Below, piece after piece: positions 18,415 through 31,074 of a DNA stretch of 41,985 nt. Origin of the DNA: a virus; the IMG/VR virus record IMGVR_UViG_3300036985_003002, positions 1 to 41,985 of that record, one strand, 5' to 3'. The notes beneath the pieces are model-generated. The model made no database searches. It saw only the letters and a program-made list of their open reading frames with translations, and was not told the origin of the DNA. Position numbers and translations under genes: made by a program. Each line of letters opens with the position of its first letter. Positions within the stretch are counted from its first letter, which is position 1.

Positions 18415-18584
18415 TGATTCCACTTTCCGAACAGGTGTTTGTTCCGCTTCATCGCGTCGAGCGAATCTCATTCTTTGCCGACTACGCGTTGATCAAGTTC
18501 CTTGATCAGCGTGATGTCGAGCGCATCGACGGCGAAGACGCCGATCGGCTGCGCAAATGCATCAAGTTCACTTGGTCTGTCTGA
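18411..18584 (+). CDS. Small protein of unknown function
   Basis: This 57-residue cytosolic-looking protein (MMIPLSEQVFVPLHRVERISFFADYALIKFLDQ) overlaps the lipoprotein stop as ATGA at 18411-18414, so ATG 18411 is preferred over the next codon. No family is recognised. It ends the late operon: the next 500 bases have no gene, and a hairpin follows within 12 bases. Confidence 0.6.
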   Translation: MMIPLSEQVFVPLHRVERISFFADYALIKFLDQRDVERIDGEDADRLRKCIKFTWSV

Positions 18585-18586
18585 TC

Positions 18587-18622
18587 AAAAAAAAACCGAC
18601 GCAAGCGGGTGCTTTGCGTCGG
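18587..18622 (-). terminator. Leftward-facing intrinsic terminator
   Basis: CCGACGCAA (18596-18604) pairs with TTGCGTCGG (18614-18622). Nine A residues precede it at 18587-18595, so on the minus strand the hairpin is followed by nine T residues, the canonical order. On the plus strand no T-run follows. It may still slow rightward transcripts of the late operon, but its polarity points to a leftward transcript entering from 18.6-19.1 kb. Confidence 0.75.
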
Positions 18623-18628
18623 CGCTCC

Positions 18629-18657
18629 TTGAACTTTACGCATTTGCTGTGTAGAGT
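18629..18657 (+). promoter_or_regulatory. Sigma70-like promoter before gene-free structured region
   Basis: TTGAAC at 18629-18634 and TAGAGT at 18652-18657 are separated by 17 bases, the same spacing and -10 box as the early promoters. Transcription should start near 18664. The nearest gene is about 440 bases downstream, and a separate promoter (19032) serves it, so the product may be a non-coding RNA. Confidence 0.5.
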
Positions 18658-18663
18658 TCGGGT

Positions 18664-19010
18664 CGGACATCCATAAGAGCGGTCACATTCTACCGCTCGA
18701 CGACTGAAACAATCGCGGCGCGCCGCATGAATGTAGGATTTTCCCTCGCCTTTGTAGAGTGGAAGTGGTTCAGTCGTGCGTCTTGACCCTAGCGCACGCC
18801 GCGGATTTCCGCGCGCTCGCTCGATGCACGAGGCGGTTGGCACCACCCAACGAAATGGTGAAAGCATCGGCAGGGAAACCTCGTGCGGCTCCGTATGGGC
18901 TGACTTTCCCGTGACCTCGTTCGCACGGGGTCATGGTGTTCCTGCTGCCCACCGATGAACTGATGCGACGTCTTGCGTGGCGATGCGCATAGCGAACCCC
19001 GAAAAAAAAT
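18664..19010 (+). ncRNA. Candidate structured non-coding RNA
   Basis: About 520 bases (18585-19106) hold no credible gene. This part has many complementary arms: GAGCGGT/ACCGCTC (18677-18683/18692-18698); ACGACTGAA/TTCAGTCGT (18700-18708/18769-18777); a GCGGCGCGCCGC palindrome at 18715; AGCGC/GCGCT (18791/18813); GCACGAGG/CCTCGTGC (18826-18833/18879-18886) enclosing GTTGG/CCAAC; CATCGGCAGG pairing with CCTG and CCGATG at 18941-18957; and a continuous 12-bp stem with loop TCGC at 18909-18936 (two G-U pairs). ATGCG/CGCAT closes 18963-18990. A loop-to-flank match, ACCA/TGGT at 18842/18856, allows a pseudoknot. The extent and strand are inferred from the promoter at 18629. It could be related to large ornate phage RNAs such as GOLLD or ROOL, which I cannot test here. 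Confidence 0.45.
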
Positions 19011-19031
19011 TGCGATTGATCTTCTCTCCTC

Positions 19032-19106
19032 TTGCACTCTGCCCCCGTGTAGGGTAGACTACGTAGGTCAAGCATGCCGCTTGATCACAACTAGGAGTAG
19101 AACGTC
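19032..19106 (+). promoter_or_regulatory. Early promoter, 5' stem-loop and GGAGTAGA leader (unit 1)
   Basis: TTGCAC (19032-19037), 17 bases, TAGACT (19055-19060). The spacer carries TCTGCCC...GGGTAGA, a near-dyad. Transcription should start near 19067, and the stem TCAAGC-ATGCC-GCTTGA begins at 19068. AGGAGTAGA at 19093-19101 serves ATG 19107. Confidence 0.75.
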
Positions 19107-19502
19107 ATGGCAAAGAACAACCGCAAGATTTCTGAAATGACCTCGGACTACAACGAGGTTGCAAACCCGATGCGCGAAGTGGTGAGGGCAACGTCAAACG
19201 TTGCTCTTGCAAATCTGATGTCGCGATGCGACACACTGGCTGACACGGACGCGATGACCGCAGCCATTGAAGGCGGCGAAACGATTGATCGTCAAGCGCG
19301 CGCGCTTCGCAGTTGCACATTGTTTGCGCTTGAAATTGGCGCGATCAGCGCCGACCAGTCGCAAGTGCTGAACACCATCCGTTCATATGCGCGCGTGCGC
19401 GCGTATGCACTGATGAGCGAAATCGACAGCGCCGACATGCAGAAAGCAATTCGCAGCGGCGCGTACTCGGGATCAACTGCGCTTTCCGAACTTCTGAAGT
19501 GA
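19107..19502 (+). CDS. Early protein of unknown function
   Basis: I do not recognise this 131-residue protein. It is rich in Ala, Ser, Asp and Met, predicted helical throughout, with no membrane segment (MAKNNRKISEMTSDYNEVANP; RSYARVRAYALMSEIDSADMQ). It is the first gene of the early region and has its own promoter-leader cassette and a hairpin at its end, so it can be expressed alone and early. Start ATG 19107 has AGGAGTAGA spaced 5 bases. Confidence 0.8.
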   Translation: MAKNNRKISEMTSDYNEVANPMREVVRATSNVALANLMSRCDTLADTDAMTAAIEGGETIDRQARALRSCTLFALEIGAISADQSQVLNTIRSYARVRAYALMSEIDSADMQKAIRSGAYSGSTALSELLK

Positions 19503-19508
19503 CGGTGG

Positions 19509-19550
19509 AAAAACAGAAGCGCCGCACACGAGGCGCGGCGCTTCTGCTTT
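19509..19550 (-). terminator. 12-bp hairpin terminator, stronger T-run leftward
   Basis: CAGAAGCGCCGC (19514-19525) pairs with GCGGCGCTTCTG (19535-19546) around a 9-base loop. AAAAA precedes it (T-run for leftward transcripts) and CTTT follows, so it may act in both directions. It separates the single-gene unit 19107 from the next group. Confidence 0.65.
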
Positions 19551-19575
19551 GGGGAAAAGATACGGACACCATACC

Positions 19576-19887
19576 ATGAAACAAGACGAAACACCACACC
19601 GAACACCGATGCAAAAAACGCGTTGGTCTACGCAGGACGAAGCGTGGAAACTGATTCAGCCTGCGTTGGCAGGGATCGGGGTGCGGGTATTCCGCTCCAT
19701 TCAGGAGCGCCCGCAGACTTGCGACGAGGTCGAGATTACTCTCGGGCTCACGCATCAGACCTGTTCCGCATCGATCAACAAACTGATGCGGGACGGGGTG
19801 ATCATTTCAATTGGCAAACGGAAGACCCGATCAGGCCGAGCCGCCTGCGTCTGGTCAATCCCGTTCCCCGAAAGTCTGTTCCCATGA
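19576..19887 (+). CDS. Winged-helix DNA-binding protein
   Basis: This 103-residue protein carries a winged helix-turn-helix at about residues 33-90: VFRSIQERPQTCDEVEITLGLTHQTCSASINKLMRDGVI with a basic wing (GKRKTRSGRAACVW). Such small proteins appear in phage early regions as regulators or replication accessories. ATG 19576 is chosen; the frame is open from TTG 19549, which lies in the terminator. No strong ribosome site is visible. It is coupled to the next gene by ATGA (19884-19887). Confidence 0.72.
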   Translation: MKQDETPHRTPMQKTRWSTQDEAWKLIQPALAGIGVRVFRSIQERPQTCDEVEITLGLTHQTCSASINKLMRDGVIISIGKRKTRSGRAACVWSIPFPESLFP

Positions 19888-20129
19888 ACCCTCACATCAC
19901 AGATCTTGTGCTGCTCACGCACGCAGGCAAGCGGTTGAACCGTCGCGACCTTGCCATTCGATGGAACTGCTCGATCCGCAATGTCTCGGCAGTCATCGCC
20001 GTGGCTCGTGTCAAGTTCGGGGTAGTGCTCGAAAGCCACAAACTGACAGACGGCACGCACGCGTACGGGCTCGCCTCGTACGGCAACCTTCAACCATCAA
20101 GCATGAAGCGCGCAAGGAAAGCCCGATGA
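19884..20129 (+). CDS. Small helix-turn-helix-like protein
   Basis: This 81-residue protein has a segment RRDLAIRWNCSIRNVSAVIAVARVKFG (split here at about residues 15-40) that reads like a helix-turn-helix, and a basic tail (SSMKRARKAR). It overlaps both neighbours by ATGA, so it is made together with the winged-helix protein and the next small DNA-binding protein. Target unknown; a regulatory role is inferred. Confidence 0.6.
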   Translation: MNPHITDLVLLTHAGKRLNRRDLAIRWNCSIRNVSAVIAVARVKFGVVLESHKLTDGTHAYGLASYGNLQPSSMKRARKAR

Positions 20130-20317
20130 AGAAGAAGCCAGTTCGCGTCAACTGCGCCGTTGCAGTTGGCGCCGACATGCACAAACAGATCACTGCGCTT
20201 GCAGAGGAATACAGTAAATCAATGGGATTTCATGTGAGCCGCACAACGGTCATCCGCATGAGCCTCACCGCTTTGCTGTACTTGCGCGATCGAAAGGAAG
20301 CACGCAATGCTAAGTGA
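20126..20317 (+). CDS. Small ribbon-helix-helix-like protein
   Basis: This 63-residue protein (MKKKPVRVNCAVAVGADMH, then a helix ITALAEEYSKSMGF and VSRTTVIRMSLTALLYL) has the strand-helix-helix layout of CopG/Arc-type DNA-binding proteins, which act as dimers on palindromic operators. ATGA overlap at 20126-20129 couples it to the upstream gene. It is a candidate for the repressor that would use the dyads in the early promoters, but this is inference. Confidence 0.62.
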   Translation: MKKKPVRVNCAVAVGADMHKQITALAEEYSKSMGFHVSRTTVIRMSLTALLYLRDRKEARNAK

Positions 20318-20423
20318 TATTGTTTTCGCAATTCTTTCCCTAATCACGCTCGCATCGTGCGTGTTCGCGCTGTACAGCGCGCTCGCACCCCTCGTAAACA
20401 TGAAAGAGGACAACGATGACTGA
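20307..20423 (+). CDS. 38-residue single-span membrane peptide
   Basis: MLSDIVFAILSLITLASC begins a single hydrophobic helix (residues 4-30) followed by an acidic tail (MKEDNDD). AAGGAAG at 20293-20299 gives a good ribosome site. It overlaps the upstream stop by 11 bases and the next start by 8. Function unknown; early phage membrane peptides can alter host membrane functions. Confidence 0.6.
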   Translation: MLSDIVFAILSLITLASCVFALYSALAPLVNMKEDNDD

Positions 20424-20658
20424 GCAGGACAGCCTGTTTCCATCGGAGAAACTTTGGCGCAAAGAATGGGTTGGCATGCCCGAGTTTGAACAACCATGCA
20501 CCGAAGCAATCATGTCTGTAACTGTTCACTTTGTGTCATACGCTGACATGCATGCGTTTGCTGCGCTTGTTGGCTCGCGCATCTTGCCTACGACCAAGAG
20601 TTTGTTTTACCCGCCACCGTCAACGCCAGTGAAAATGGTGTACACGCGTGAATCCTAG
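20416..20658 (+). CDS. Small conserved phage protein next to glycosyltransferase
   Basis: The 80-residue protein starts at ATG 20416 with GAGGA upstream. Its second half (VHFVSYADMHAFAALVGSRI, TTKSLFYPP) matches a pattern I recall in small phage proteins next to DNA-modification or ParB-like genes. Biochemical function unknown. It overlaps the glycosyltransferase gene by 11 bases, so the two are probably made in fixed ratio and may act together. Confidence 0.65.
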   Translation: MTEQDSLFPSEKLWRKEWVGMPEFEQPCTEAIMSVTVHFVSYADMHAFAALVGSRILPTTKSLFYPPPSTPVKMVYTRES

Positions 20659-21520
20659 ACACCCTATCTACATTGTTAGCAAAGGTAGGTGGGAGAGCAG
20701 GCTCACCGCTCGTGCGCTAGATGAAATGGGTGTGCCGTACTACATCGTGGTTGAGCAGGCTGAGTACGACAAGTACGCTGCGGTGATTTGCAAAGATAAA
20801 ATCCTTGTGCTTGATCAGCAGTACCTTGACGACTATCAAACGCTTGACAATCTTGGGGCGACGAAGAGTAAAGGGCCTGGATCAGCAAGAAACTTCTGTT
20901 GGGATCACGCGCTTTTGCGCCACGGCGCAACATGGCACTGGGTGCTAGACGACAACATCAATGGGTTCGTTCGACTTAATCGCAACCAACGCATAAAAGT
21001 TGACAGCGGCGCAATGTTTGCAGCCGCCGAGGATTTTGTAGAGCGATACGAGAATGTTGTGCAGGCTGGGTTTGAGTATCGATTCTTTGCAGGCGGTGGT
21101 CGCCGTGAGAAAGCACCGTACAGAACAAACACGAGGGTGTACTCGTGCATCCTTATTCGCAACGACATCCCATTCAGATGGCGTGGCAGATACAACGAGG
21201 ACACCATTCTCTCGCTTGACATACTGACTAATGGTTATGCCACCATACTCTTTCAAGCATTTCTTCAGAACAAGGCTGCTACACAGACTGTCAAGGGTGG
21301 AAACAGCGCAGACTTCTATGACCACGAGGGGACACGACCCAAGTCGCAGATGCTGATTGATGTCTATCCACAATACTCACGCATGGTGACCCGCTATGGG
21401 CGATGGCACCACCATGTGGACTACTCATCATTTCAAAGAACCCAACTAATTCGCAAGAGTGGCGTTTCAATTCCCGATGGCGTGAACAACTATGGCATGG
21501 TTCTAAAGGAGACAACATGA
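20648..21520 (+). CDS. TET-associated-type glycosyltransferase
   Basis: This 290-residue protein starts at GTG 20648 (RHPIYIVSKGRWESRLTARAL), a GT-A-type beginning typical of phage TET-associated glycosyltransferases. A DxD-like LDDN lies near residue 100 (WHWVLDDNINGF), followed by a Rossmann-like acceptor half with RYNEDTILSLD. In that family the enzymes are thought to add a sugar to hydroxymethylated cytosine in DNA. No TET/JBP hydroxylase or hydroxymethylase is recognisable in this genome, so the acceptor base, if it is DNA, must be made by the host, come from an unrecognised gene, or not be hydroxymethylcytosine. The stop overlaps the next ATG as ATGA. Confidence 0.75.
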   Translation: MNPRHPIYIVSKGRWESRLTARALDEMGVPYYIVVEQAEYDKYAAVICKDKILVLDQQYLDDYQTLDNLGATKSKGPGSARNFCWDHALLRHGATWHWVLDDNINGFVRLNRNQRIKVDSGAMFAAAEDFVERYENVVQAGFEYRFFAGGGRREKAPYRTNTRVYSCILIRNDIPFRWRGRYNEDTILSLDILTNGYATILFQAFLQNKAATQTVKGGNSADFYDHEGTRPKSQMLIDVYPQYSRMVTRYGRWHHHVDYSSFQRTQLIRKSGVSIPDGVNNYGMVLKETT

Positions 21521-22068
21521 ACACCAAGCGCGAATGGATCACGCAGAAGAACCCTGATGCAATGTTGTGGGATGGTCTTGACAACGCGATCATCGGCATC
21601 GCCGAACGAAGCGGTCAGCCTCCGACTGCTGTGTACGATCGAGAGCAAGCAATCGCTATCTTGGCAAAGGAAATGACGGAAGAGGATGCCGAGGAATATT
21701 TTGATTTCAATGTGGCATGTGCCTATATCGGCGCTCTCACGCCGTTCGTGATGGACAGAATCCCAATGCATGAACTTCACACGCGTGACTACCTTGCCCG
21801 CCTGCGCGATCTGCCGCACCCGTCGCTGCTTGATGTAGACGAGGCGATCGCGCAAATCATTGCGCTGCGTGCCGAGGTCGAGCGCCTGCGCACTGCCGTC
21901 ACAGTGTGGTCAGCAGCGGACGCCGAGTGGATGACAATCGATGTCCCAACGCGCACCGCGCTGAACACCCTGCGCGATGCGGACAAGGCGCTTCGTGATG
22001 CGGTCGGCTTGCCGTCGCCGAGAACCTATGACGATCCGACCGAGTGGTTCGACGGGGTGACCGAATGA
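21517..22068 (+). CDS. Phage protein with conserved N-terminal domain and coiled coil
   Basis: This 183-residue protein starts at ATG 21517 (AAGGAG at 21506-21511), overlapping the glycosyltransferase stop. Residues 1-85 (DAMLWDGLDNAIIGIAERSG, EYFDFNVACAYIGALTPFV) look like a conserved phage protein of unknown function. The C-terminal part has a short coiled coil (IALRAEVERLRTAV) typical of Ea22-like phage proteins. It lies between the glycosyltransferase and PP-loop genes, overlapping both by 4 bases. Confidence 0.68.
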   Translation: MNTKREWITQKNPDAMLWDGLDNAIIGIAERSGQPPTAVYDREQAIAILAKEMTEEDAEEYFDFNVACAYIGALTPFVMDRIPMHELHTRDYLARLRDLPHPSLLDVDEAIAQIIALRAEVERLRTAVTVWSAADAEWMTIDVPTRTALNTLRDADKALRDAVGLPSPRTYDDPTEWFDGVTE

Positions 22069-22883
22069 GCGCGTACAAGATGGATCATCCGTTTGTAGTT
22101 TCTTTCTCGGGAGGTCGCACCAGTGGGTTTATGTTGCATCAGATCCTGCAAGCAAACGGCGGAATCCCTGATGGTTCGCATGTCTGCTTTGCAAACACTG
22201 GGAAAGAGCACGAGGCAACTCTTCAGTTTGTGCAAGAAATTGCGGACACGTGGCAAGTCAAGATTGCTTGGATTGAGCGCAGGTTTGACACTGAGCGCGG
22301 GTTTGATGTCACCAACTTTCAAACCGCTGCAAGAAACGGAGAACCGTTTGCAGGACTTATCGACAAGAAAATGTTTTTGCCGAATCCAGTTATGCGATTC
22401 TGTACTTCAGAACTAAAGGTTGTTCCGATTGCGAAGTACGTCAAAGAACAAGGAGTGACGGACGCGACAATGCTCGTAGGTCTGCGCGCTGACGAGCCGC
22501 GCCGAGTGCATCGTGTTCAGGGAGATGTTCGCCAAGGATTTGATTACGACTGCCCGATTGCCCGAGCAGGCCACACATTGACCGATGTCCGCGCATTCTG
22601 GAACGCGCAACCATTTGATCTGCGACTTCCAAACGATGACAGGGCGTTTGGCAATTGCGACCTGTGTTTCTTGAAAGGCAAAGGCGTCATTGAACGAGTG
22701 TTGCGACACGAACCCGAGCGTGCTACATGGTGGGCGGATCAAGAAGCCAAGGTTGGTGCGCGGTTTAGGAAAGATCAACCGACCTACGCAAGTATCCTTC
22801 ATCAGATCAATATTCAGCCCGAACTATTTGGAGCAACCAGTGATGAAGACAACGAGATCATCCCATGTACTTGCACCGATTGA
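22065..22883 (+). CDS. PAPS reductase-like PP-loop protein
   Basis: This 272-residue protein has the PP-loop SGGRTS at residues 15-20 (VVSFSGGRTSGF), the RFCTSELK motif, an RADEPRR segment and a C-terminal FGNCDLCFLKGKG with paired cysteines. It belongs to the phosphoadenosine phosphosulfate reductase/adenine nucleotide alpha-hydrolase superfamily. These activate substrates with ATP or reduce PAPS; phage members are linked to sulfur metabolism or DNA phosphorothioate/base modification, not settled. ATG 22065 overlaps the upstream stop. With the adjacent glycosyltransferase it may form a nucleic-acid modification set. Confidence 0.82.
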   Translation: MSAYKMDHPFVVSFSGGRTSGFMLHQILQANGGIPDGSHVCFANTGKEHEATLQFVQEIADTWQVKIAWIERRFDTERGFDVTNFQTAARNGEPFAGLIDKKMFLPNPVMRFCTSELKVVPIAKYVKEQGVTDATMLVGLRADEPRRVHRVQGDVRQGFDYDCPIARAGHTLTDVRAFWNAQPFDLRLPNDDRAFGNCDLCFLKGKGVIERVLRHEPERATWWADQEAKVGARFRKDQPTYASILHQINIQPELFGATSDEDNEIIPCTCTD

Positions 22884-22895
22884 CGTGGTGAACCA

Positions 22896-23312
22896 ATGAC
22901 CTTCACTGTCATCGGCATCCCTGCTGCTCAGGGCAGCAAGCGCATGGTGCGCGCGCGCGGAGGGCGCACACTTCTGATCGAGCAATCAACGCGGGTCAAG
23001 CCGTGGCGCGCAGCCGTAGCCGCTGCTGCCCGCGCAGCGGGCTGCATGGCTCGTGATGGTGATTGCGCCGTGACGATCAGCATCAGGCTCGCGCGACCCG
23101 TAGCGCACTACAAGGCAGACGGCACCCTGCGGACAGGGCTTCCTCGATTCCCGCGCCGCATCGACATTGACAAGGCGGCGCGCGCTGTGCTCGACGCGTT
23201 GACTGGGGTCGCGTATCTCGACGATCGTCAGGTGCAGCAACTCGACATCGACCGAGTGTGGTACGCCGAGGGCGGCGCCCTGATCTCAGTAGATTTCATC
23301 GAAGGCACTTGA
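22896..23312 (+). CDS. RusA-like Holliday junction resolvase
   Basis: This 138-residue endonuclease cuts four-way DNA junctions, clearing recombination intermediates before packaging. It has the family start (VIGIPAAQGSKRMVRARGG), and the acidic active-site set RIDIDK (D90, D92), VLDALTG (D100) and YLDDRQV (D109, D110). Length is normal for RusA. It starts 12 bases after the PP-loop gene, with only a weak ribosome site. The promoter for the RecT gene begins in its last codons. Confidence 0.88.
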   Translation: MTFTVIGIPAAQGSKRMVRARGGRTLLIEQSTRVKPWRAAVAAAARAAGCMARDGDCAVTISIRLARPVAHYKADGTLRTGLPRFPRRIDIDKAARAVLDALTGVAYLDDRQVQQLDIDRVWYAEGGALISVDFIEGT

Positions 23313-23381
23313 CACCCTACGCGATCGACAGTATGCTGTGTCTGCGCACCAATTACGGTGCGCCCTACAGGAGTAGACCCT
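23309..23381 (+). promoter_or_regulatory. Strong promoter, 5' stem-loop and GGAGTAGA leader (unit 2)
   Basis: TTGACA (23309-23314), 17 bases, TATGCT (23332-23337), close to consensus. A dyad ACAG-TATG-CTGT covers the -10. Transcription should start near 23344, where the stem GCGCACC-AATTAC-GGTGCGC begins (23344-23363). AGGAGTAGA at 23369-23377 serves ATG 23382. The -35 overlaps the end of the resolvase gene. Confidence 0.85.
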
Positions 23382-24281
23382 ATGGACATCTCTCTCGCAT
23401 CGCGTTCCGCTTCGCGGTTCTCCCCTGATCAGGTTGACCTGATCGCCCGCACCATTGCTAAGGGCTGTGGCGCCGACGAACTTTCCCTGTTCATTGCGAT
23501 CTGTGATCGTACGGGGCTCGACCCCTTTGCACGGCAGATCTACGCTATCCGCCGTTGGGACGGGCGCGAGAAGCGCGAAATCATGCAGTGCCAAATCTCG
23601 ATTGACGGCGCGCGCTTGACCGCGCAGCGCAGCAACGAGTACGCAGGGCAGGACGGCCCGTACTGGTGCGGCGCAGACGGCGCGTGGCGCGATGTTTGGT
23701 TGTCGGACGAGCCGCCGACCGCGGCGAAGGTTGGCGTCATGCGACGAGGATTCACCGCGCCTCTGTACGCGGTCGCCCTGTTCTCCGAGTACGCGCAGCG
23801 GGGAAGGGAAGGGCAGTTGACGGGGATGTGGGGGAAGATGCCAGTCGTGATGATTGCCAAGTGCGCCGAGTCCCTCGCACTGCGGAAGGCATTCCCCGCC
23901 GAGTTGAGCGGGCTGTACACGAGCGAGGAAATGTCGCAGGCTGACGCGCCTGCGCCTGCCGAGCGCGCGACCTCGACCGCTGCGCTGTTCAGCCCGACGC
24001 CTGTCACCGCTATCGCTGTTGTCGAGCCTGCGCCCGCGCCCGCGCTGCCGTGGCCTCCTTCGTGCGACGCAACCGTGACGCCGCGCAAGGTTGTGCCGCG
24101 CGGCGCCAACACTGCCGTGCTGTTCGAGGATCATCAGGGCATGAGCAACTGGGTAGCAGTTCCGAACGAGATGGCAGGCGTGATCGAGATCGGCGTACCC
24201 GTTGACCTCGCGTGGGATTTCGACAAGCAGGGCAAGTTCTTTGTTGCCCATTCCATTACCCGAATCAAGGAGACAGCATGA
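23382..24281 (+). CDS. bet: RecT/Bet-family single-strand annealing protein
   Basis: This 299-residue protein anneals complementary DNA strands in phage recombination. Its core is typical of Bet: [70 protein letters not shown] and [10 protein letters not shown] (about residues 20-185, shown in pieces). An Ala/Pro-rich linker (about 190-230) leads to a C-terminal region ending in [18 protein letters not shown]. The frame is open from 23358, but ATG 23382 follows the AGGAGTAGA leader. No partner exonuclease is visible, which is unusual. Own strong promoter; coupled by ATGA to the next gene. Confidence 0.92.
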
Positions 24282-24790
24282 GCCTCTACGAGATTAATCA
24301 CGAACTGCTTTCGCTGCTCAATGCGCGTACCGACGCCGAGGGCAACCTCGACGAGGAAACCGAAGCCGCAATGGCGGAGCACATTGCCGCGCTCTCAATG
24401 GCGTTCGACGACAAGATTGATGCATATGCAGCACTTATTCAGACTTGCAAATCTCGTGGTGATGCGAGACTGTCGGAGTCCCGACGCATGGCGGCGCTTG
24501 CCGAGTCGGACAAAGTGCTTGTCGCGCGCCTGCAAAAAGCCGTACTTACGGCGATGACCAGTACGGGGAAACTCGCAGCCGACACCGCGCGCTTCCGCGT
24601 GCGCGTGGTGAAAAACGGAGGCGTCACGCCCGTGATCGTGCACGATGCGGACAGCCTGAGCGCCGAGTATCGGGTGCCCGTATACTCGGAGCGTGTGGAC
24701 ACCGCCGCGCTGCGCATGGCGCTAGAGCGTGGTGATGTGATCGCGGGCGCCACGCTCGGAGAGCGCGGAACCCGACTCGATATCCGATAG
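24278..24790 (+). CDS. Siphovirus Gp157-like protein
   Basis: This 170-residue protein begins [16 protein letters not shown] and has a long helical middle ([29 protein letters not shown]) followed by beta-rich [17 protein letters not shown], matching Gp157-type phage proteins. These proteins lie beside recombination genes and some have been linked to phage resistance; the molecular role is unclear. ATG 24278 has AAGGAG upstream and overlaps the RecT stop. The unit ends in a strong terminator 10 bases later. Confidence 0.82.
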
Positions 24791-24800
24791 ATCTACTCCG

Positions 24801-24846
24801 CTCCCCTGCGCCGCGCAAGTGGCGCGGGGGAGTTTTTCTATTTTTG
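24801..24846 (+). terminator. Intrinsic terminator after recT-gp157 unit
   Basis: CTCCCCTGCGCC (24801-24812) pairs with GGCGCGGGGGAG (24821-24832), 12 bp with one G-U pair, loop of 8, followed by TTTTTCTATTTTT. Confidence 0.92.
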
Positions 24847-24859
24847 TTTGCCGAGCCCC

Positions 24860-24939
24860 TTGCATCCTACCGATGCACGGGGTACGGTGTGCGTGTACCG
24901 ATCGCGTGATCGGCTCGCGACATCCCCAAGGAGTAGACC
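24860..24939 (+). promoter_or_regulatory. Early promoter, 5' stem-loop and GGAGTAGA leader (unit 3)
   Basis: TTGCAT (24860-24865), 17 bases, TACGGT (24883-24888). Predicted start near 24895; the stem CCGATC-GCGT-GATCGG lies at 24898-24913. AGGAGTAGA at 24929-24937 serves ATG 24940. The sequence CCTTGCATCCTACCGAT is shared with units 4 and 7. Confidence 0.82.
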
Positions 24940-25311
24940 ATGTGCAAAAAATCCCCCAGTCCTCGATCGCTTGCGACAGCCGCAGCGGTCGAAATGATCA
25001 CGAACCGCATCGAAGCGTTCAGCGTGCAATGTTGGAAGCGCCCGCGTAAACCGATGTCTCCGTATGTGCTGCGCGAACGCGCGGCGATCGGTTTCGGTAT
25101 CGATGTTATCTATCAATCGGGCATGATCGTCGAAGCGGAGCGCGCTGCGTTGATTGCGGAAATGGACTGCGCCGAGCACGGCGGCAGCACATACCCCGTC
25201 AAGTGTGAGGCTTGCAACGGCGTCGTGCCGCAGGCAATGTCGAACACTGTCGGCAATTCCGACACCGCCACATTCACCGTTTGCGATTACTGCCGTCCTA
25301 TTTACGCTTAA
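24940..25311 (+). CDS. Early protein with possible zinc-binding C-terminus
   Basis: I do not recognise this 123-residue protein. It has a helical N-terminal half (AAAVEMITNRIEAFSVQCW) and a C-terminal half with CEAC and CDYC pairs about 33 residues apart, plus CAEH, which could bind zinc. It opens a four-gene unit; the downstream genes follow at 8 bases or overlap. Start chosen by the AGGAGTAGA leader. Confidence 0.72.
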   Translation: MCKKSPSPRSLATAAAVEMITNRIEAFSVQCWKRPRKPMSPYVLRERAAIGFGIDVIYQSGMIVEAERAALIAEMDCAEHGGSTYPVKCEACNGVVPQAMSNTVGNSDTATFTVCDYCRPIYA

Positions 25312-25319
25312 GGAACCCC

Positions 25320-25619
25320 ATGTCCGAATCAACCGACAACATCGCCGCCAGTCTGCACGCCCGCATTGAAACCTACCGCGCCGACCTCATAGAGTCGCCG
25401 CCGAGCCCCTCTAATTTCGATTACCTGCTCCGCTTGTTTCACGGCGCACAGGCGCTGATCGCCTACGGCGACGAAGCGCAACTGTGGAGCCCGAGCGCCG
25501 CGCGCGCTGCGTTCGCGCGGCTCGACCTCGCATGGTCGCCGCACCGCGCCGCCGAGGAGCGGCGCCGTTGGCCCGCGCTGTCCGCGGCAGGGCTCGCAGG
25601 TACGGGAGGTGGCGCGTGA
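25320..25619 (+). CDS. Small early protein, unknown function
   Basis: This 99-residue protein (MSESTDNIAASLHARIETYR) is helical and contains FDYLLRLFHGAQALIAYGDE. ATG 25320 follows AAGGAAC. The last 20 residues are Ala/Arg/Gly-rich. No family recognised. It overlaps the next gene as GTGA (25616-25619). Confidence 0.62.
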   Translation: MSESTDNIAASLHARIETYRADLIESPPSPSNFDYLLRLFHGAQALIAYGDEAQLWSPSAARAAFARLDLAWSPHRAAEERRRWPALSAAGLAGTGGGA

Positions 25620-25870
25620 AAGTCATTGCATACACCTACGACGCCGATGTGCACTGCCCCGCGTGCACGCGCAAGGCGCTCGCCCGCGGCACGATCACCG
25701 CGGCGCCCATTTGGAACATCGAGCCGCCCGCCACTCGCCGCGGGCGCGCGGCTTTCATCGCAGATATGTTGTTCGACAGCAACGGCAACGAAGTCGGCGC
25801 GATGTTCAGCACCGATGAATGCCCCGAGGCGGTCATGTGCGCCGACTGCGGGCACGAGGTCACGCCGTGA
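25616..25870 (+). CDS. Small zinc-ribbon-like phage protein
   Basis: This 84-residue protein starts at GTG 25616 with GGGAGG upstream (MKVIAYTYDADVHCPACTRKA) and ends FSTDECPEAVMCADCGHEV. CPAC and CADC pairs suggest a zinc ribbon. The pattern is common among small phage proteins of unknown function. Overlaps both neighbours by 4 bases. Confidence 0.7.
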   Translation: MKVIAYTYDADVHCPACTRKALARGTITAAPIWNIEPPATRRGRAAFIADMLFDSNGNEVGAMFSTDECPEAVMCADCGHEVTP

Positions 25871-26082
25871 GTGTTGAGGCTGCGCGCGCTGCGGCGATCG
25901 CTGCGATCTATCGACAGATCCAGTGGGTCGCCGAGCACGGCGCGCTCGACCACAGCGGCGCAGCCGCGGCGTGTATCCGCGATCAGATCACGCTCAGCGC
26001 GCATATGGCGCTGATTGATGACGAGGCGCACGCCGCCATGCTCGCAGCCCTCGCCGAAGCCGAGGGCGCAAATTTTTTGTAG
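25867..26082 (+). CDS. Small alanine-rich early protein
   Basis: This 71-residue protein starts at GTG 25867, overlapping the previous stop as GTGA. It is a mainly helical, Ala-rich sequence (AAIAAIYRQIQWVAEHGALD) without a recognised family. Its last codons form the transcription terminator of the unit, so coding and termination signals overlap. Confidence 0.58.
   Translation: MSVEAARAAAIAAIYRQIQWVAEHGALDHSGAAAACIRDQITLSAHMALIDDEAHAAMLAALAEAEGANFL
26047..26078 (+). terminator. Intrinsic terminator inside gene end
   Basis: GCCCTC (26047-26052) pairs with GAGGGC (26062-26067); TTTTTT at 26073-26078. The whole signal is within the last codons of the gene ending at 26082. Confidence 0.7.
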
Positions 26083-26100
26083 ATTGATTTAGCAAAGCCC

Positions 26101-26181
26101 TTGCATCCTACCGATACGGGGGATACAGTCACCACATCGGGCGCGTGCTCGATTCAGATTCAACCTTACGGAGTAGATCCC
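26101..26181 (+). promoter_or_regulatory. Early promoter, 5' stem-loop and GGAGTAGA leader (unit 4)
   Basis: TTGCAT (26101-26106), 17 bases, TACAGT (26124-26129). Spacer dyad TCC..CCG/CGG..GGA. Predicted start near 26136; a 7-bp stem with loop GCGT lies at 26136-26153 (one G-U). GGAGTAGA at 26170-26177 serves ATG 26182. Confidence 0.85.
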
Positions 26182-26475
26182 ATGCTTGCGACCTCGATCC
26201 TGACCGTTTCATATCTTTCGGGCAATTCGCGCGCCCGCCTCGTGCACACTCAGACCGATTCGCGCACCGTGCGACTGCGCGGGCGCGATTTCGCCATGTC
26301 TGCCTCAGGTCAGGCGCACGCCGAGGCGGAAAAGTTTGCCGCCGAGCGCGGGTTGCATGTGCTCGGGTGCTGCCATGTCCCTGTCTACGGCAGCGGTGAA
26401 ATCAAAGGCAAGCGCAGCACTTGGACATTCACACTCAGCGCCGAGCGCATCGTTTCTGAATCCGTCACATTCTGA
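26182..26475 (+). CDS. Early protein related to N-terminus of 27252 product
   Basis: This 97-residue protein (LTVSYLSGNSRARLVHTQTD) appears beta-rich with one helix (QAHAEAEKFAAERGLHVLG) and then YGSGEIKGKRSTWTFTL. The order strand - AEAE helix - GLHV - YGS - K.TWT is also seen in residues 9-80 of the protein at 27252, so the two seem paralogous. Function unknown. Start set by GGAGTAGA. Confidence 0.7.
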   Translation: MLATSILTVSYLSGNSRARLVHTQTDSRTVRLRGRDFAMSASGQAHAEAEKFAAERGLHVLGCCHVPVYGSGEIKGKRSTWTFTLSAERIVSESVTF

Positions 26476-26489
26476 ACAGGAGAACCCCT

Positions 26490-26819
26490 ATGAACAATCA
26501 CGGAAATATTCAAGTAACTGCCACGGCGAACTACCACCCCGCACTGGTTGCCCATTTCGGCTCGGGCGCCCTGCTCGACATTGACTGGGAGGCCGATTTG
26601 ATCGATGGCACGATCGAGCACGAATGCGGCGGCGGCGCCGTCGAATGGTCAGAGGATACGGAGGTAATCGAGCGCATGCATATCGTCGAACTGACCATCA
26701 TCGGCGACGGCGACGACGACGACTGCTCCTACAACCACGACGCTATCAGCGCGCTGCCGCGCGCCGTGCGCGCTGAACTGTGCGCCGAGGCGCGCGAAGT
26801 TTGTGAGGCGTCACGATGA
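26490..26819 (+). CDS. Small acidic early protein
   Basis: This 109-residue protein is strongly acidic, with GDGDDDDCSYNHD near residue 73 and a beta-rich first half (IQVTATANYHPALVAHFGSG). Acidic early proteins can mimic DNA, but no such family is recognised here. AGGAGAAC precedes ATG 26490. Overlaps the next gene as ATGA. Confidence 0.66.
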   Translation: MNNHGNIQVTATANYHPALVAHFGSGALLDIDWEADLIDGTIEHECGGGAVEWSEDTEVIERMHIVELTIIGDGDDDDCSYNHDAISALPRAVRAELCAEAREVCEASR

Positions 26820-27109
26820 GCGCCACCATCACCGTATCCGTATCCGACGGCTCGGCAAACGCCCTTGCCTACGCCATTGGCGCTCGGCGCCGAGATATCG
26901 AGGAGCGCGTAGCCGTCGCCGAGCGCCGCGGCGCTGCGGCAGTGGTGCGCGAGTACCTGCGCGAGGATGCGCTACTCGGCGCCGTGGCGCAGCAACTGGA
27001 CGCGCAGATGGTGGCGCTCGATCGCGCCGAGCGCGAGCAGCGCGAGGATATCGAGGGGCTCGACAGTATCCCCGTGTGGATGTTGGGGATGCCGATCGAG
27101 CAGGACTAG
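26816..27109 (+). CDS. Small helical early protein
   Basis: This 97-residue protein has a short beta start (ATITVSVSDGSANALAYAIG) and a long charged helix, about residues 23-80, rich in Arg, Glu and Ala (DIEERVAVAERRG; LDRAEREQREDIEGL). A coiled coil is likely. ATGA overlap with the previous gene. A terminator begins 8 bases after its stop. Confidence 0.62.
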   Translation: MSATITVSVSDGSANALAYAIGARRRDIEERVAVAERRGAAAVVREYLREDALLGAVAQQLDAQMVALDRAEREQREDIEGLDSIPVWMLGMPIEQD

Positions 27110-27117
27110 ATCACGAC

Positions 27118-27149
27118 GGGCACGGCTGACGCCGTGCCCTTTGTTTTTT
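27118..27149 (+). terminator. Intrinsic terminator
   Basis: GGGCACGGC (27118-27126) pairs with GCCGTGCCC (27131-27139) around TGAC, followed by TTTGTTTTTT. Ends unit 4. Confidence 0.93.
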
Positions 27150-27169
27150 CAGAATGTTGAACTATCCAC

Positions 27170-27251
27170 TTGCACCCTGCGCAAGCGGAGGGTACGATGT
27201 ATCGAGCAGGCCGCGCGGTCTGCGCTCAGCACCTCACACGGAGTAGATCCC
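27170..27251 (+). promoter_or_regulatory. Early promoter, 5' stem-loop and GGAGTAGA leader (unit 5)
   Basis: TTGCAC (27170-27175), 17 bases, TACGAT (27193-27198). Spacer dyad ACCCTGCGC-AA-GCGGAGGGT (one mismatch). Predicted start near 27205; GCAGGCC-GCGC-GGTCTGC stem at 27206-27223 (one G-U). GGAGTAGA at 27240-27247 serves ATG 27252. Confidence 0.83.
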
Positions 27252-28205
27252 ATGTCACGCACCACCACCACCACCATGTCCGTCGCTTATGTCCGCACCG
27301 CTCACAGCGATCGGCTCCAGTTGCGAGTCAACGGGCGCCTCGCGGCGCTCGGCTACAGCGGTAGCACTCGCCCCAACCGCGCCGAAGCCGAAGCCGCGGC
27401 GATCCTCGCCGCCGCAGCCGCGCCGCGCGGGTTGCATGTGGTGTCAATCGAGATGGACTACGGCAGCGACCATCTTCGCAATAAATGGACGATGCGCGCC
27501 GTGCTCGGCGTCGGCTCCGCGCCCGTTGTCTCGGAGGTCGGCTACCCCGACGCAGACCACTCTGAGCGCCTGCAATCCGAGCGGGTCGCCGCGCGCGCTG
27601 CGCACCGTCGCGCCCGTGCCGAGGCGGACATTGACGAGGATCGACTCGCCGCTGCCGACGCAGCCTACGCCGCCGCACTGGCGGCGATCTATGCCGCGCA
27701 TTCCGTCGCTGACCGCGAGCGCGCAGACGCGCGAATTCCCAACGAAAGGCCGACCGTCGCCGCGCCAGTCGCCGACGAAGCGCACGCGGACGCCTGCGCC
27801 GAGGCGGCGGCGGCGGCGTTGTCGGACATGGTCGAGGGCTACCTTGACTGCGCGCTGTGGGTTAGCGTGCCACTGTCCGAGGATGAAAGCGCCGACCAGT
27901 CGCTGTTTCAAATCGGATACGAGCGCAGCAATTGCTGCGCCGACACGCTGACCGACGCGCGCGCCGCATGCGAGGGGTTCGTTGAAGCGCACGGCGACGC
28001 CCTGCGCGCTGCGTTCGAGTCTCACCCGCAATACACCCCCACGGGCGCGGGGCACGATTTGTTTCTCAGCCGCAACGGGCACGGCGCGGGGTTCTTTGAC
28101 CACGGAGAGCATCCGTGTTGGGATGTGTTGCAGGCTGCGGCGCGCGGGCTCGGCGCGACCGAGGACGTATCGGAGAATGAGGACGGCACCTGCACGGTGC
28201 GATGA
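27252..28205 (+). CDS. Two-domain early protein of unknown function
   Basis: This 317-residue protein has three parts. Residues 9-85 resemble the protein at 26182 (AEAAAILAAAAAPRGLHVVS, YGS, KWTM). Residues 95-195 are a charged, Ala-rich helical linker. The C-terminal 110 residues (DLFLSRNGHGAGFFDHGEHP, preceded by DQSLFQIGYE) match a small domain that occurs alone in many phages, with a conserved GHD.....NGHGAGF pattern, function unknown. It forms a single-gene unit with its own promoter and terminator. Start set by GGAGTAGA; ATG 27276 is an alternative. Confidence 0.75.
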   Translation: MSRTTTTTMSVAYVRTAHSDRLQLRVNGRLAALGYSGSTRPNRAEAEAAAILAAAAAPRGLHVVSIEMDYGSDHLRNKWTMRAVLGVGSAPVVSEVGYPDADHSERLQSERVAARAAHRRARAEADIDEDRLAAADAAYAAALAAIYAAHSVADRERADARIPNERPTVAAPVADEAHADACAEAAAAALSDMVEGYLDCALWVSVPLSEDESADQSLFQIGYERSNCCADTLTDARAACEGFVEAHGDALRAAFESHPQYTPTGAGHDLFLSRNGHGAGFFDHGEHPCWDVLQAAARGLGATEDVSENEDGTCTVR

Positions 28206-28209
28206 TCAG

Positions 28210-28245
28210 ACGGGCGGGGCTTGCGCCTCGCCCGTTTCTTTTTTT
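28210..28245 (+). terminator. Intrinsic terminator
   Basis: An 11-bp stem (28210-28220 with 28225-28235, one G-U, loop TTGC) is followed by TTCTTTTTTT. It begins 4 bases after the stop of the gene ending at 28205. Confidence 0.9.
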
Positions 28246-28266
28246 CTAGATTTCCATGCAAGCCGC

Positions 28267-28352
28267 TTGCATCCTGCGCGGACGCAGGGTAGAGTCCCCG
28301 TGTCGCAGCCGTGTCGGTTGCGAATCAGACCCCCCCGAATCGGAGTAGAACC
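28267..28352 (+). promoter_or_regulatory. Early promoter, 5' stem-loop and GGAGTAGA leader (unit 6)
   Basis: TTGCAT (28267-28272), 17 bases, TAGAGT (28290-28295). Spacer dyad CCTGCG-CGGA-CGCAGG is perfect. Predicted start near 28302; stem TCGCAGCC/GGTTGCGA at 28303-28323 (8 bp, one G-U, loop GTGTC). GGAGTAGA at 28342-28349 serves ATG 28353. Confidence 0.88.
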
Positions 28353-29486
28353 ATGAACCCAACCGCCGCCCTCACCGTCAAGAACCCTGCCAAGAAGACC
28401 ATTTGCCTGACGATCGACGGCAAGATTGTCGCCAAGCGCGTAGTCGGATTCGCCCGCCAGTACACGCAGGCGCTGATCCTGATCGGCAGCGGCGGACGCG
28501 TCTACTTTGAATCGTGCACCGCCAAGCGCGGCAGCCTTGCCAAGGTTGCCGCCGAGATCAACGCGAGCCCAGTCAACTGGGCGGGGGTCGCCTGCCGCGC
28601 GCTCGTGCTCGACATTGACGGGCTCACGATCACGCTGTGCCCGCTCGCACACGCCGAAGCCACCGCCGCCGCCGCCATCGACGCCGCCACGCCTGCCGCC
28701 GTCGCGAAGCGCGCGCAGCGCGCCGCGCAGGATGCGCGCAGTGTTGTCGAGCGCACTGCGCGCATCGCCGCCGAGGCTGCGGAACTTGCTGCCGACCCCG
28801 CTAGGGCAGTCCGCGCTGCTGCGTGGGCTGCGGAGGTTGCCGAGGCGCGCGAGGCGCACCGTGCGCGCCTCGCAGCCAACCGCGCCGCGGTCAAGGCGCA
28901 GCGCGCCGCCGACGCCGCGCCTGCGTCAGTTGCAGCGCCTGCGCCAGTCGCCGAGCCTGCGCCCGTCGCCGCGCCTGCGCCCGTCGCCGAGCCTGCGCGC
29001 ACTCGCGCCGAGCGCGACGCCAACTACGATGCCGCATACACCGCGGCAGTCGCGTGCGCCGCCGCGCCCATACGCGTCTCCGCGATGATCGACATCGCGT
29101 ACGCCGTGCGCGACGATGCGCAGCGCGCCGCGTACGCCACCCGTGACGCGGCATTCGCCGCCGCCCGCCAAACATTCGATGACGCCATGACCGCCTCGGG
29201 CGACGCGTTCCGCGCGGCATTCGGCGCCGCCTGCGCCGTGCGCGACGCGCACGCAGCCGAGCACGCCGCCGAAACGCCCGCCAGTGCCGAGCGTGACGCC
29301 GAGGACGCCGAGCGCCTTGCCACGGACGCCGAGGACGCAGGATCGCCCGACGCGGCGGCGCTGCGCCTCGCAGCCATCGCCGCGGCTAGCCGCTCGGCAC
29401 GCGTCGCCGAGGCGCACGCAGCCTACGCCGCCGAGCCCGCCGACTTCGAGGTTGACCGCTCGGCAGAGTTTGAATGGCTGCACTAA
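28353..29486 (+). CDS. Alanine-rich early protein with Pro-Ala repeats
   Basis: This 377-residue protein has a compact beta-rich N-terminal domain (residues 1-95: KTICLTIDGKIVAKRVVGFA, GGRVYFESC, LVLDIDGLTITLCPL) and then about 280 residues of very Ala-rich helix. Near residues 190-212 a linker repeats PAPVAEPAPVAAP. The helical part could form a rod or coiled coil. No family is recognised. The gene is extremely GC-rich. Single-gene unit with its own promoter and terminator. Confidence 0.72.
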   Translation: MNPTAALTVKNPAKKTICLTIDGKIVAKRVVGFARQYTQALILIGSGGRVYFESCTAKRGSLAKVAAEINASPVNWAGVACRALVLDIDGLTITLCPLAHAEATAAAAIDAATPAAVAKRAQRAAQDARSVVERTARIAAEAAELAADPARAVRAAAWAAEVAEAREAHRARLAANRAAVKAQRAADAAPASVAAPAPVAEPAPVAAPAPVAEPARTRAERDANYDAAYTAAVACAAAPIRVSAMIDIAYAVRDDAQRAAYATRDAAFAAARQTFDDAMTASGDAFRAAFGAACAVRDAHAAEHAAETPASAERDAEDAERLATDAEDAGSPDAAALRLAAIAAASRSARVAEAHAAYAAEPADFEVDRSAEFEWLH

Positions 29487-29495
29487 ATTCGCGCC

Positions 29496-29512
29496 AGTTC
29501 CAACGGAAACCA
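29496..29512 (+). repeat. 17-bp direct repeat, copy 1
   Basis: AGTTCCAACGGAAACCA at 29496-29512 recurs exactly at 31053-31069. It contains the dyad TTCC-AAC-GGAA. This copy sits between a stop codon and a terminator hairpin. Confidence 0.8.
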
Positions 29513-29546
29513 CGGGCAGGCTCACCCCCTGCCCGTTTCTTTTTTT
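29512..29546 (+). terminator. Intrinsic terminator
   Basis: ACGGGCAGG (29512-29520) pairs with CCTGCCCGT (29528-29536), loop of 7, then TTCTTTTTTT. Ends unit 6. Confidence 0.92.
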
Positions 29547-29567
29547 CGAGATTCTCACCCGAGCCCC

Positions 29568-29602
29568 TTGCATCCTACCGATAGAGGGGATAGAGTCCCA
29601 CC
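29568..29602 (+). promoter_or_regulatory. Early promoter with ATG at predicted +1 (unit 7)
   Basis: TTGCAT (29568-29573), 17 bases, TAGAGT (29591-29596), nearly identical in its first half to units 3 and 4. The ATG at 29603 lies 6 bases after the -10, at the expected transcription start. There is no room for the stem-loop or GGAGTAGA that the other units have. Confidence 0.82.
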
Positions 29603-29866
29603 ATGCTCACCCCTGAAACATTCCAAATTGTCAAGACCGCCGCCGAGTACACCGTCACCGCCAACGGCGCGCAGATCGGCGTCATCCGCCCGCGCATCGT
29701 CAACAAGCGCACCATTGGCTACACATGGCTGCCCGCGCTCGGCTCGGGCTCGCCTGTCGCGATCCGCGCAGGCGATGAACGCGGCGGATTCAAACTGCAC
29801 AGCCTCGCCTCCGCGCTCGCAGGCTGCAAAGCCATCGCCTACCGCGCCGCACTCGCCATCGCCTGA
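29603..29866 (+). CDS. Small early protein, probably leaderless mRNA
   Basis: This 87-residue protein (MLTPETFQIVKTAAEYTVTA) has a beta-rich middle (NGAQIGVIRPRIVNKRTIGY) and a C-terminal helix (LASALAGCKAIAYRAALAIA). No family recognised. No ribosome site is visible, and its ATG coincides with the predicted transcription start, so translation is probably leaderless. Two small genes follow without their own promoters. Confidence 0.7.
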   Translation: MLTPETFQIVKTAAEYTVTANGAQIGVIRPRIVNKRTIGYTWLPALGSGSPVAIRAGDERGGFKLHSLASALAGCKAIAYRAALAIA

Positions 29867-29879
29867 AAGGAACCCCACC

Positions 29880-29960
29880 ATGCCAACCATGCTCGACCTT
29901 GCCCTAGTGCTTCTCATCCTGTCCGCCCTGACCATCATCGTTCACATTTACATCGACTGA
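29880..29960 (+). CDS. 26-residue membrane peptide
   Basis: MPTMLDLALVLLILSALTII begins an almost entirely hydrophobic 26-residue peptide ending HIYID. AAAGGAACC gives a ribosome site 5-8 bases upstream, in the 13-base gap after the previous gene. Small early membrane peptides are common in phages. Function unknown. Confidence 0.5.
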   Translation: MPTMLDLALVLLILSALTIIVHIYID

Positions 29961-29967
29961 CCCGACC

Positions 29968-30177
29968 ATGTACCTACCCGCCAACAAAAAACCGTCCCTC
30001 TACTGCGGATCCCCCGACACCGAGGCGCTCGCGCGCCTCTCGAAGTCAGCGCTGCTCGACCTGCTCACCGAAGCGCTGCGCGCAAACGCAGGGCATTGCG
30101 ACAGCGCGTGCAGCATTGAGGAAGTGCGCGAGTTCTGCGCGCCCACCCTCGCAGCCCGTGGCGACCGCCCAATTTAA
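29968..30177 (+). CDS. Small early protein, unknown function
   Basis: This 69-residue protein (MYLPANKKPSLYCGSPDTEA) contains a helix (LARLSKSALLDLLTEALRAN) and three more cysteines (C44, C48 in HCDSACS, and C57). No family recognised. It starts 7 bases after the membrane peptide without a clear ribosome site. Confidence 0.55.
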   Translation: MYLPANKKPSLYCGSPDTEALARLSKSALLDLLTEALRANAGHCDSACSIEEVREFCAPTLAARGDRPI

Positions 30178-30178
30178 C

Positions 30179-30265
30179 CCGAGCACACGGCACCTACATT
30201 CTGCCGCTCGGATAGGTCGCGACGCGACCCGAACCGCCCCGACAATTTCGGGGCGGTTTCGCTTT
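30179..30265 (+). terminator. Three consecutive hairpins, last one an intrinsic terminator
   Basis: CCGAGC/GCTCGG (30179-30184/30206-30211), GGTCGC-GAC-GCGACC (30215-30229) and AACCGCCCCGA/TCGGGGCGGTT (30232-30242/30248-30258, loop CAATT), followed by TTTCGCTTT. The last is a convincing terminator; the first two may be part of its structure or a small RNA. Confidence 0.75.
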
Positions 30266-30290
30266 ACACTCACGCCAGTTCACCTACACT
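30263..30290 (+). promoter_or_regulatory. Possible promoter before XRE-like gene
   Basis: TTTACA (30263-30268), 16 bases, TACACT (30285-30290). It would start transcription about 6 bases before ATG 30303, leaving almost no leader. It lacks the repeated TTGCATCC core, so confidence is low. Confidence 0.35.
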
Positions 30291-30302
30291 AGGAACACCC
30301 AA

Positions 30303-30584
30303 ATGCTGACCGAACACGCCTACCCCATCACCGACGCCGCCGACTGGAAAGGCGCCGTCACCGCACACCTTGCCGAGCACGGCGTGAGCCGTTACGCGCT
30401 CACCCGCGCCGCGCACGCTGCCGAGGTCTGCGCATCGCATACCTGCGAGTGCCTGCTTGCCGCGCCCGACACCGTCACAGGGCAGCGGATGCCCTCACTC
30501 GCCCTCGCGATCGACATCGCCCGACTCGCAGGGCTCGACCTAGTTCTAGTCGCCCGAGCCGTACCCCTCACATCACGACCATGA
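30303..30584 (+). CDS. XRE-like helix-turn-helix protein
   Basis: This 93-residue protein reads as a Cro/C1-type domain: AHLAEHGVSRYALTRAAHAA, then a loop with two cysteines, GQRMPSLALAIDIARLAGLD and LVLVAR at the end. Such domains bind operators as dimers. It heads the last early group just before the packaging operon and could regulate the switch to late genes (inference). Overlaps the next gene by ATGA. Confidence 0.62.
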   Translation: MLTEHAYPITDAADWKGAVTAHLAEHGVSRYALTRAAHAAEVCASHTCECLLAAPDTVTGQRMPSLALAIDIARLAGLDLVLVARAVPLTSRP

Positions 30585-30844
30585 CCCTGATCACCCGAGC
30601 CGTCGGCATCCATCCCACCCTCGGCGTCGTGCGCGCCGCAGCCATCACACGATCACACCGCGAACATAGCAGCGCGCATGATTCACTCCGCGACGCACTG
30701 CGCGCGCGCGGCGCCTCTCGCATATGGGTAGGCTCAGGCACGCCCGTAGCAGACTCCGAAGCAGGCGCCCGAGAAATCGAATCCGTACAGACGCGCGGAT
30801 TCCCCACGCCCCTGCGCGAACGGGAAAGCCGACGCCCCCTATGA
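30581..30844 (+). CDS. Small arginine-rich protein, unknown function
   Basis: This 87-residue protein (MTLITRAVGIHPTLGVVRAA) is basic (many Arg, His) and has no recognised family. It overlaps neighbours by ATGA on both sides, which supports translation. ATG 30581 is the start consistent with coupling. Confidence 0.5.
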   Translation: MTLITRAVGIHPTLGVVRAAAITRSHREHSSAHDSLRDALRARGASRIWVGSGTPVADSEAGAREIESVQTRGFPTPLRERESRRPL

Positions 30845-31047
30845 GCACACGCACAGCAGCAGCCGCAGCCCGAGCCGCTACGATCGCCGCACAGGCTGCG
30901 CAGGCAGACGCTGAGCGCAGGGCTCGCAGGATCCTCGGAGAGCGTGACGAGGCACGCACGCTCGTCTGTGCCCTAGATGTTGCCGCAGGCACACACGCGA
31001 CACCCGAAGCAGCAGCCGAAGCCCGAGGGTGGCAGTCTCGGAAATAG
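30841..31047 (+). CDS. Small alanine-rich helical protein
   Basis: This 68-residue protein is a charged Ala-rich helix (MSTRTAAAAARAATIAAQAA; ERRARRILGERDEARTLV). ATGA overlap with the upstream gene. No family recognised; low complexity makes any similarity search unreliable. Confidence 0.52.
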   Translation: MSTRTAAAAARAATIAAQAAQADAERRARRILGERDEARTLVCALDVAAGTHATPEAAAEARGWQSRK

Positions 31048-31052
31048 TGGGA

Positions 31053-31069
31053 AGTTCCAACGGAAACCA
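31053..31069 (+). repeat. 17-bp direct repeat, copy 2, before terminase
   Basis: Exact copy of AGTTCCAACGGAAACCA (also at 29496), here ending 5 bases before the terminase small subunit ATG. The internal TTCC-AAC-GGAA dyad may bind a regulator of the late operon (inference). Confidence 0.8.
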
Positions 31070-31074
31070 ACACC

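Follow-up and report, generated by a model that had tools for sequence, protein, structure and literature searches.

A covarying stem-loop at or near the predicted 5' ends of phage early transcripts

Six of the seven promoters of one type in this phage genome are followed by a stem-loop that lies at or close to the predicted transcription start. In each of these six units (P1-P6), a sigma70-type promoter leads into the hairpin, a linker, the Shine-Dalgarno (SD) sequence GGAGTAGA and an ATG. As far as can be predicted from sequence, this layout is common to our phage and to roughly ten further phage contigs, which share one promoter type and are otherwise different. We consider it probable that the 5'-terminal stem-loop shields the mRNA from 5'-end-dependent decay. 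Individual host genes are known to carry such stem-loops; here a group of phages has a covarying one on transcript after transcript.

The window, by which we mean the whole stretch of DNA analysed, is a virus record of 41,985 bases. Its structural genes are of the BPP-1/epsilon15 kind (BPP-1-like podoviruses) and resemble those of Limnohabitans phage DC33, to whose portal the window portal is about 75% identical. RusA-, RecT- and Gp157-like genes lie with small genes of unknown function between 19 and 31 kb. From this gene content we infer that the transcripts are early. All features described here are on the + strand. The -35 and -10 elements of P1-P6 are exactly 17 nucleotides apart in every case, and the six hairpins, all of which were found where the initial annotation had placed them, begin 6-9 nucleotides 3' of the -10 (5-9 by another count).

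19032-19060, +, P1 promoter, TTGCAC-17-TAGACT
19067-19085, +, P1 5' hairpin, GTCAAGC-ATGCC-GCTTGAT; first pair G.U, outward extension 19066-19086
19094-19101, +, P1 SD GGAGTAGA; ATG at 19107
23309-23337, +, P2 promoter, TTGACA-17-TATGCT, upstream of recT
23344-23363, +, P2 5' hairpin, GCGCACC-AATTAC-GGTGCGC
23370-23377, +, P2 SD GGAGTAGA; RecT ATG at 23382
24800-24833, +, intrinsic terminator immediately 5' of P3
24860-24888, +, P3 promoter, TTGCAT-17-TACGGT
24898-24913, +, P3 5' hairpin, CCGATC-GCGT-GATCGG
24930-24937, +, P3 SD GGAGTAGA; ATG at 24940
26047-26067, +, similar terminator before P4
26101-26129, +, P4 promoter, TTGCAT-17-TACAGT
26136-26153, +, P4 5' hairpin, ATCGGGC-GCGT-GCTCGAT
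26170-26177, +, P4 SD GGAGTAGA; ATG at 26182
27118-27139, +, similar terminator before P5
27170-27198, +, P5 promoter, TTGCAC-17-TACGAT
27206-27223, +, P5 5' hairpin, GCAGGCC-GCGC-GGTCTGC
27240-27247, +, P5 SD GGAGTAGA; ATG at 27252
28208-28237, +, similar terminator before P6
28267-28295, +, P6 promoter, TTGCAT-17-TAGAGT
28303-28323, +, P6 5' hairpin, TCGCAGCCG-TGT-CGGTTGCGA
28342-28349, +, P6 SD GGAGTAGA; ATG at 28353
29512-29536, +, similar terminator before P7
29568-29596, +, P7 promoter, same type; leaderless, ATG at 29603 (6 nucleotides past the -10), without hairpin or SD

The window leaders pair at this place far more than their composition predicts. The best stem starting 3-8 nucleotides past the -10 has a mean of 6.58, compared to 1.70 (sd 0.87) in dinucleotide shuffles (z 5.6), and the largest mean stem among 300 shuffles was 4.42. 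Shuffled leaders, the control that the initial annotation had proposed, thus pair far less at the hairpin position. The profile of anchored stems peaks 7 nucleotides past the -10 and is low past offset 10. Predicted energies of the stems run from -7.5 to -13.2 kcal/mol, and if +1 is as assumed, 0-3 bases stay unpaired at the 5' end. Minimum free energy shuffle tests of 30-nucleotide leaders gave a combined p of 7e-6, with P3 and P5 non-significant singly; with the GC-rich early region as background for folding energy, the combined p was only 0.005. In so GC-rich a region energy is less remarkable, and the case rests on the fixed position of the stems, not on energy alone.

To look beyond this genome, viral contigs were scanned with a pattern of promoter and downstream AGGA that is blind to pairing. 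Twelve contigs were returned. Several show a -10, about 6 nucleotides, a hairpin, an SD and an ATG; others resemble chance matches, as did most matches of one early motif scan. The promoter pattern matched 14 of 16 chosen contigs and its reversed control none; most of the 16 had been found via the promoter, so the reversed control is informative and the 14 is not. With the window and its sister contig L122 set aside, 31 leaders remain, two of them from promoters with almost no leader. They have a mean stem of 5.89 versus 1.36 when shuffled (z 13), although the contigs partly share genes and leaders, so that the leaders are not fully independent and the z is overstated. Their profile peaks at offset 6, and stem offsets in the relatives fall mostly 5-7 nucleotides past the -10. 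Many of the relatives' hairpins resemble GTCGGGA-ATGTC-TCCCGAC, and others do not. The leaders of RecT genes carry different 5' arms at the same place: GCGCACC in the window and GCGCGCC in L122, GTCGGG in G002 (L197), GTTGGGA in G004 (L160) and GTTGGG in G006 (L162), and the RecT leader of L247 also has a stem there. The layout tracks this promoter type, plus a few further cases (L211/L219, L247). Scans of DC33 and the BPP-1-like podoviruses, relatives by structural genes, found no such leaders, and when RecT phages further removed were scanned for generic sigma70 sites, no clear enrichment was seen at +1.

Several minor observations attach to these contigs. The hairpin loop often holds an AUG (L160, L162, L089, L065, L197 and the window at 19074), which is sometimes in frame with the downstream gene and elsewhere opens a tiny upstream ORF (MIPT-stop before recT in L160 and L162). 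At two sites with the same promoter type (L209 1898 and L210 5853), a hairpin of 5 bp lies close to +1, and another hairpin then precedes AGGAGTAGG. The promoter-hairpin pattern also matched once in a Verrucomicrobiales MAG, within a coding gene, which we take as chance.

The stems change in sequence in a manner that keeps them paired. Across 15 alignable hairpins, both sides change in five of seven pairs and 93% of cells pair, a percentage biased upward by loops padded by hand and rows picked as hairpins; the control for this row selection is the stem-length test, re-optimised on each shuffle. A naive MAFFT alignment misaligned stems of unequal length, so the counts were taken from the alignable class with padded loops. 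The covariation score of 0.430, compared to 0.243 (sd 0.029) when shuffled, was reached by none of 500 shuffles, and sliding the partner by one base gave at most 0.15. Among 26 hairpins, arms paired with their own partners at 5.85 of 6 positions, compared to 3.35 after swapping (6.0 and 2.87 in the window only), figures that carry the same bias because the rows were selected as hairpins. The earlier proposal of selection on structure is borne out by these compensatory changes and by the better pairing of own arms, and covariation in the 15 alignable hairpins is indeed above background.

Contrary to the earlier claim, not every early mRNA has the hairpin: P7 lacks it. A weaker promoter-like site at 30263-30290 has a start codon too near for any hairpin to fit. 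In L055, a gene start similar to that of P7 is equally leaderless, with its ATG exactly 6 nucleotides past the -10 and no hairpin, and at G003:11817 and G011:4567 the leader is very short and the hairpin absent. Because these leaderless or very short-leader sites (P7, L055, G003:11817, G011:4567) keep the promoter and lose the hairpin, the hairpin goes with the leader RNA and not with promoter control. The leaderless ATG at offset 6 in P7 and L055 suggests that +1 would lie near where most stems begin, and that most stems start at or beside it. The stem-position profiles agree with the fixed place near +1 claimed in the initial annotation; its more literal statement, that each stem begins at the predicted +1, fails for P3, whose stem starts 3 nucleotides further on. 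The gene at 30303, which follows the 30263-30290 site, encodes a product 53% identical to an L065 protein, and that homologue likewise sits behind a hairpin-free promoter (L065 4567-4610).

How might a stem in this position act? The hairpin would be the first structure of each promoter's mRNA, with the transcript starting at, or 0-3 nucleotides before, a stem of 6-9 bp; a short linker comes next, and then a strong SD and the gene. With almost no unpaired 5' bases, 5'-end-dependent decay would most likely be blocked, at a step that depends on the host: pyrophosphate removal by RppH and 5' tethering of RNase E, or the 5' exonuclease activity of RNase J. Terminators precede P3-P7 and set the units apart, so that no mRNA could rely on the protection of another; a hairpin of its own would give each of these small units, ended by its own terminator, a stable mRNA. 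A 5' hairpin impedes RppH, and 5'-terminal stem-loops lengthen mRNA life by hindering RppH and RNase E, or RNase J (PMC3997798, citing Emory 1992; Bouvet and Belasco 1992; Bricker and Belasco 1999; Hambraeus 2002). Since 5' stem-loops are established stabilisers and the layout fits, we take 5'-end protection as the most likely role; the sequences show the structure, and from them the protective role, the nuclease and the exact +1 are inferred. Two facts count against this explanation: the relatives' hairpin sequence is partly conserved (GTC..., loop AUG), although protection by structure alone would not require it, and P7 and other leaderless mRNAs in these phages manage without a hairpin.

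In this way, the phage leaders may be similar to those of E. coli ompA and papA and B. subtilis aprE, in which the message opens, at its 5' end or close to it, with a stem-loop ahead of a linker and SD, and stability depends on 5'-end base pairing (PMC3997798). The window stems likewise lie within a few nucleotides of the predicted 5' end, as their offsets and the leaderless ATGs indicate, and it is pairing rather than sequence that is kept, as arm swapping and covariation show. Unlike ompA, papA and aprE, which are single host genes, the arrangement recurs within one phage, with differing stems, at six of its seven promoters, goes with one promoter type in otherwise different phages, and is known here from sequence. 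If the stems do protect, host 5'-end-dependent decay would exert strong pressure on how phages express their early genes, as the layout suggests. The leaders would be a natural collection in which to test how short the unpaired 5' RNA must be for a message to escape decay, and they may serve as ready-made stabilising leaders.

Alternatively, the transcripts could form an RNA regulon, in which an RNA-binding protein of phage or host binds the hairpins and governs the translation or stability of the whole set, a reading we consider possible but doubtful. In G002, G004, G006, G007, G008 and G010, most copies look like GUCGGGA-AUGNY-UCCCGAC with a frequent loop AUG, and P1 of the window falls in this class. 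However, P2-P6 have no common stem sequence, their loops are AAUUAC, GCGU, GCGU, GCGC and UGU, and a candidate binding protein was not identified. Because stems and loops differ among the six copies, such recognition is less likely in the window phage; it is more open in the relatives. One could also envision a promoter-plus-hairpin cassette that spread among the phages of one host lineage, where a protein of phage or host reads the AUG-loop hairpin at the 5' end and decides what becomes of all early mRNAs together, the window phage being a derivative that keeps mainly the structure. We regard this scenario as unlikely.

That the inverted repeats are instead operators in the DNA at +1, bound by a dimeric repressor or activator, is quite improbable. 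The dyads at the start site are perfect or near-perfect and their sequence is partly conserved in relatives, but a single phage would then hold six unrelated half-sites, and the leaderless promoters drop the dyad. Non-Watson-Crick cells, scored alike, include 15 G.U and 7 A.C (p 0.07), a slight excess that weakly favours RNA over DNA and is suggestive only; the six unrelated sequences and the absence at leaderless promoters weigh more.

The put RNA of phage HK022 consists of two conserved stem-loops that act on RNA polymerase. A put-like nascent-RNA element for antitermination or anti-pausing would resemble our leaders in being structured RNA that opens phage early transcripts, as put does at the 5' end of phage transcripts (PMC9378689), yet it is very unlikely here. 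Each window leader has one short hairpin of variable sequence instead of two conserved ones, and terminators stand between the units, directly 5' of P3-P7, where read-through would make those promoters redundant. An Rfam scan of 18500-31200 gave only two weak matches; both scored far below the gathering scores of their families, and both lay away from the leaders. We give equally little credence to a hairpin that insulates translation or opens the SD. A linker and strong SD do follow the hairpin in every window leader that bears one, but predicted SD accessibility with and without it is 0.76/0.77, 0.25/0.25, 0.43/0.45, 0.36/0.38, 0.55/0.55 and 0.57/0.57, which does not support the earlier suggestion that the hairpin keeps GGAGTAGA open. 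Chance hairpins in GC-rich leaders, for which the unremarkable folding energies of P3 and P5 might speak, are scarcely credible given both positional z scores, the covariation and the recurrence across phages.

The initial annotation could name no phage system arranged in exactly this way, and the open-access papers and Rfam that were searched yielded none. The nearest phage arrangement we found is that of Cluster K mycobacteriophages, in which many non-structural genes carry a repeated SD-like box, the 13-bp SAS GGGATAGGAGCCC at the start codon, and an upstream inverted repeat, ESAS (PMC3203893). ESAS is a sequence-conserved imperfect repeat of 17 bp, whose departures, according to its authors, generally do not support RNA pairing (PMC3203893). 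In contrast, the window stems are 6-9 bp and vary in sequence with pairing kept, and SAS is absent before all six window start codons, where GGAGTAGA stands instead.

Hairpin promoters of the kind read by the N4 virion RNA polymerase were considered and rejected. The window encodes a 3571-aa protein (5116-15831) of about that polymerase's size; it matches LPD22, DUF7178 and phrog_9880, is of the large polyvalent protein type, and had no polymerase-family match in a scan of selected window proteins. The hairpins, moreover, lie 3' of a sigma70-type -10.

The promoters themselves carry a further repeat. The spacers of P1-P7 and of the relatives' promoters hold an inverted repeat, CCT(N)C...G(N)AGGG, that adjoins the -10. 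CCT and GGG were fixed in the search pattern and the A of AGG was free; in 81% of 42 promoters it complements the T of CCT. The repeat is found at leaderless promoters too and is possibly an operator or activator site. A RecT search of genome contigs found no host. Finally, the DC33 record (PQ492659) is listed as Inoviridae, yet its 39-kb genome encodes a podovirus-like portal, and this filing is probably a taxonomy error.
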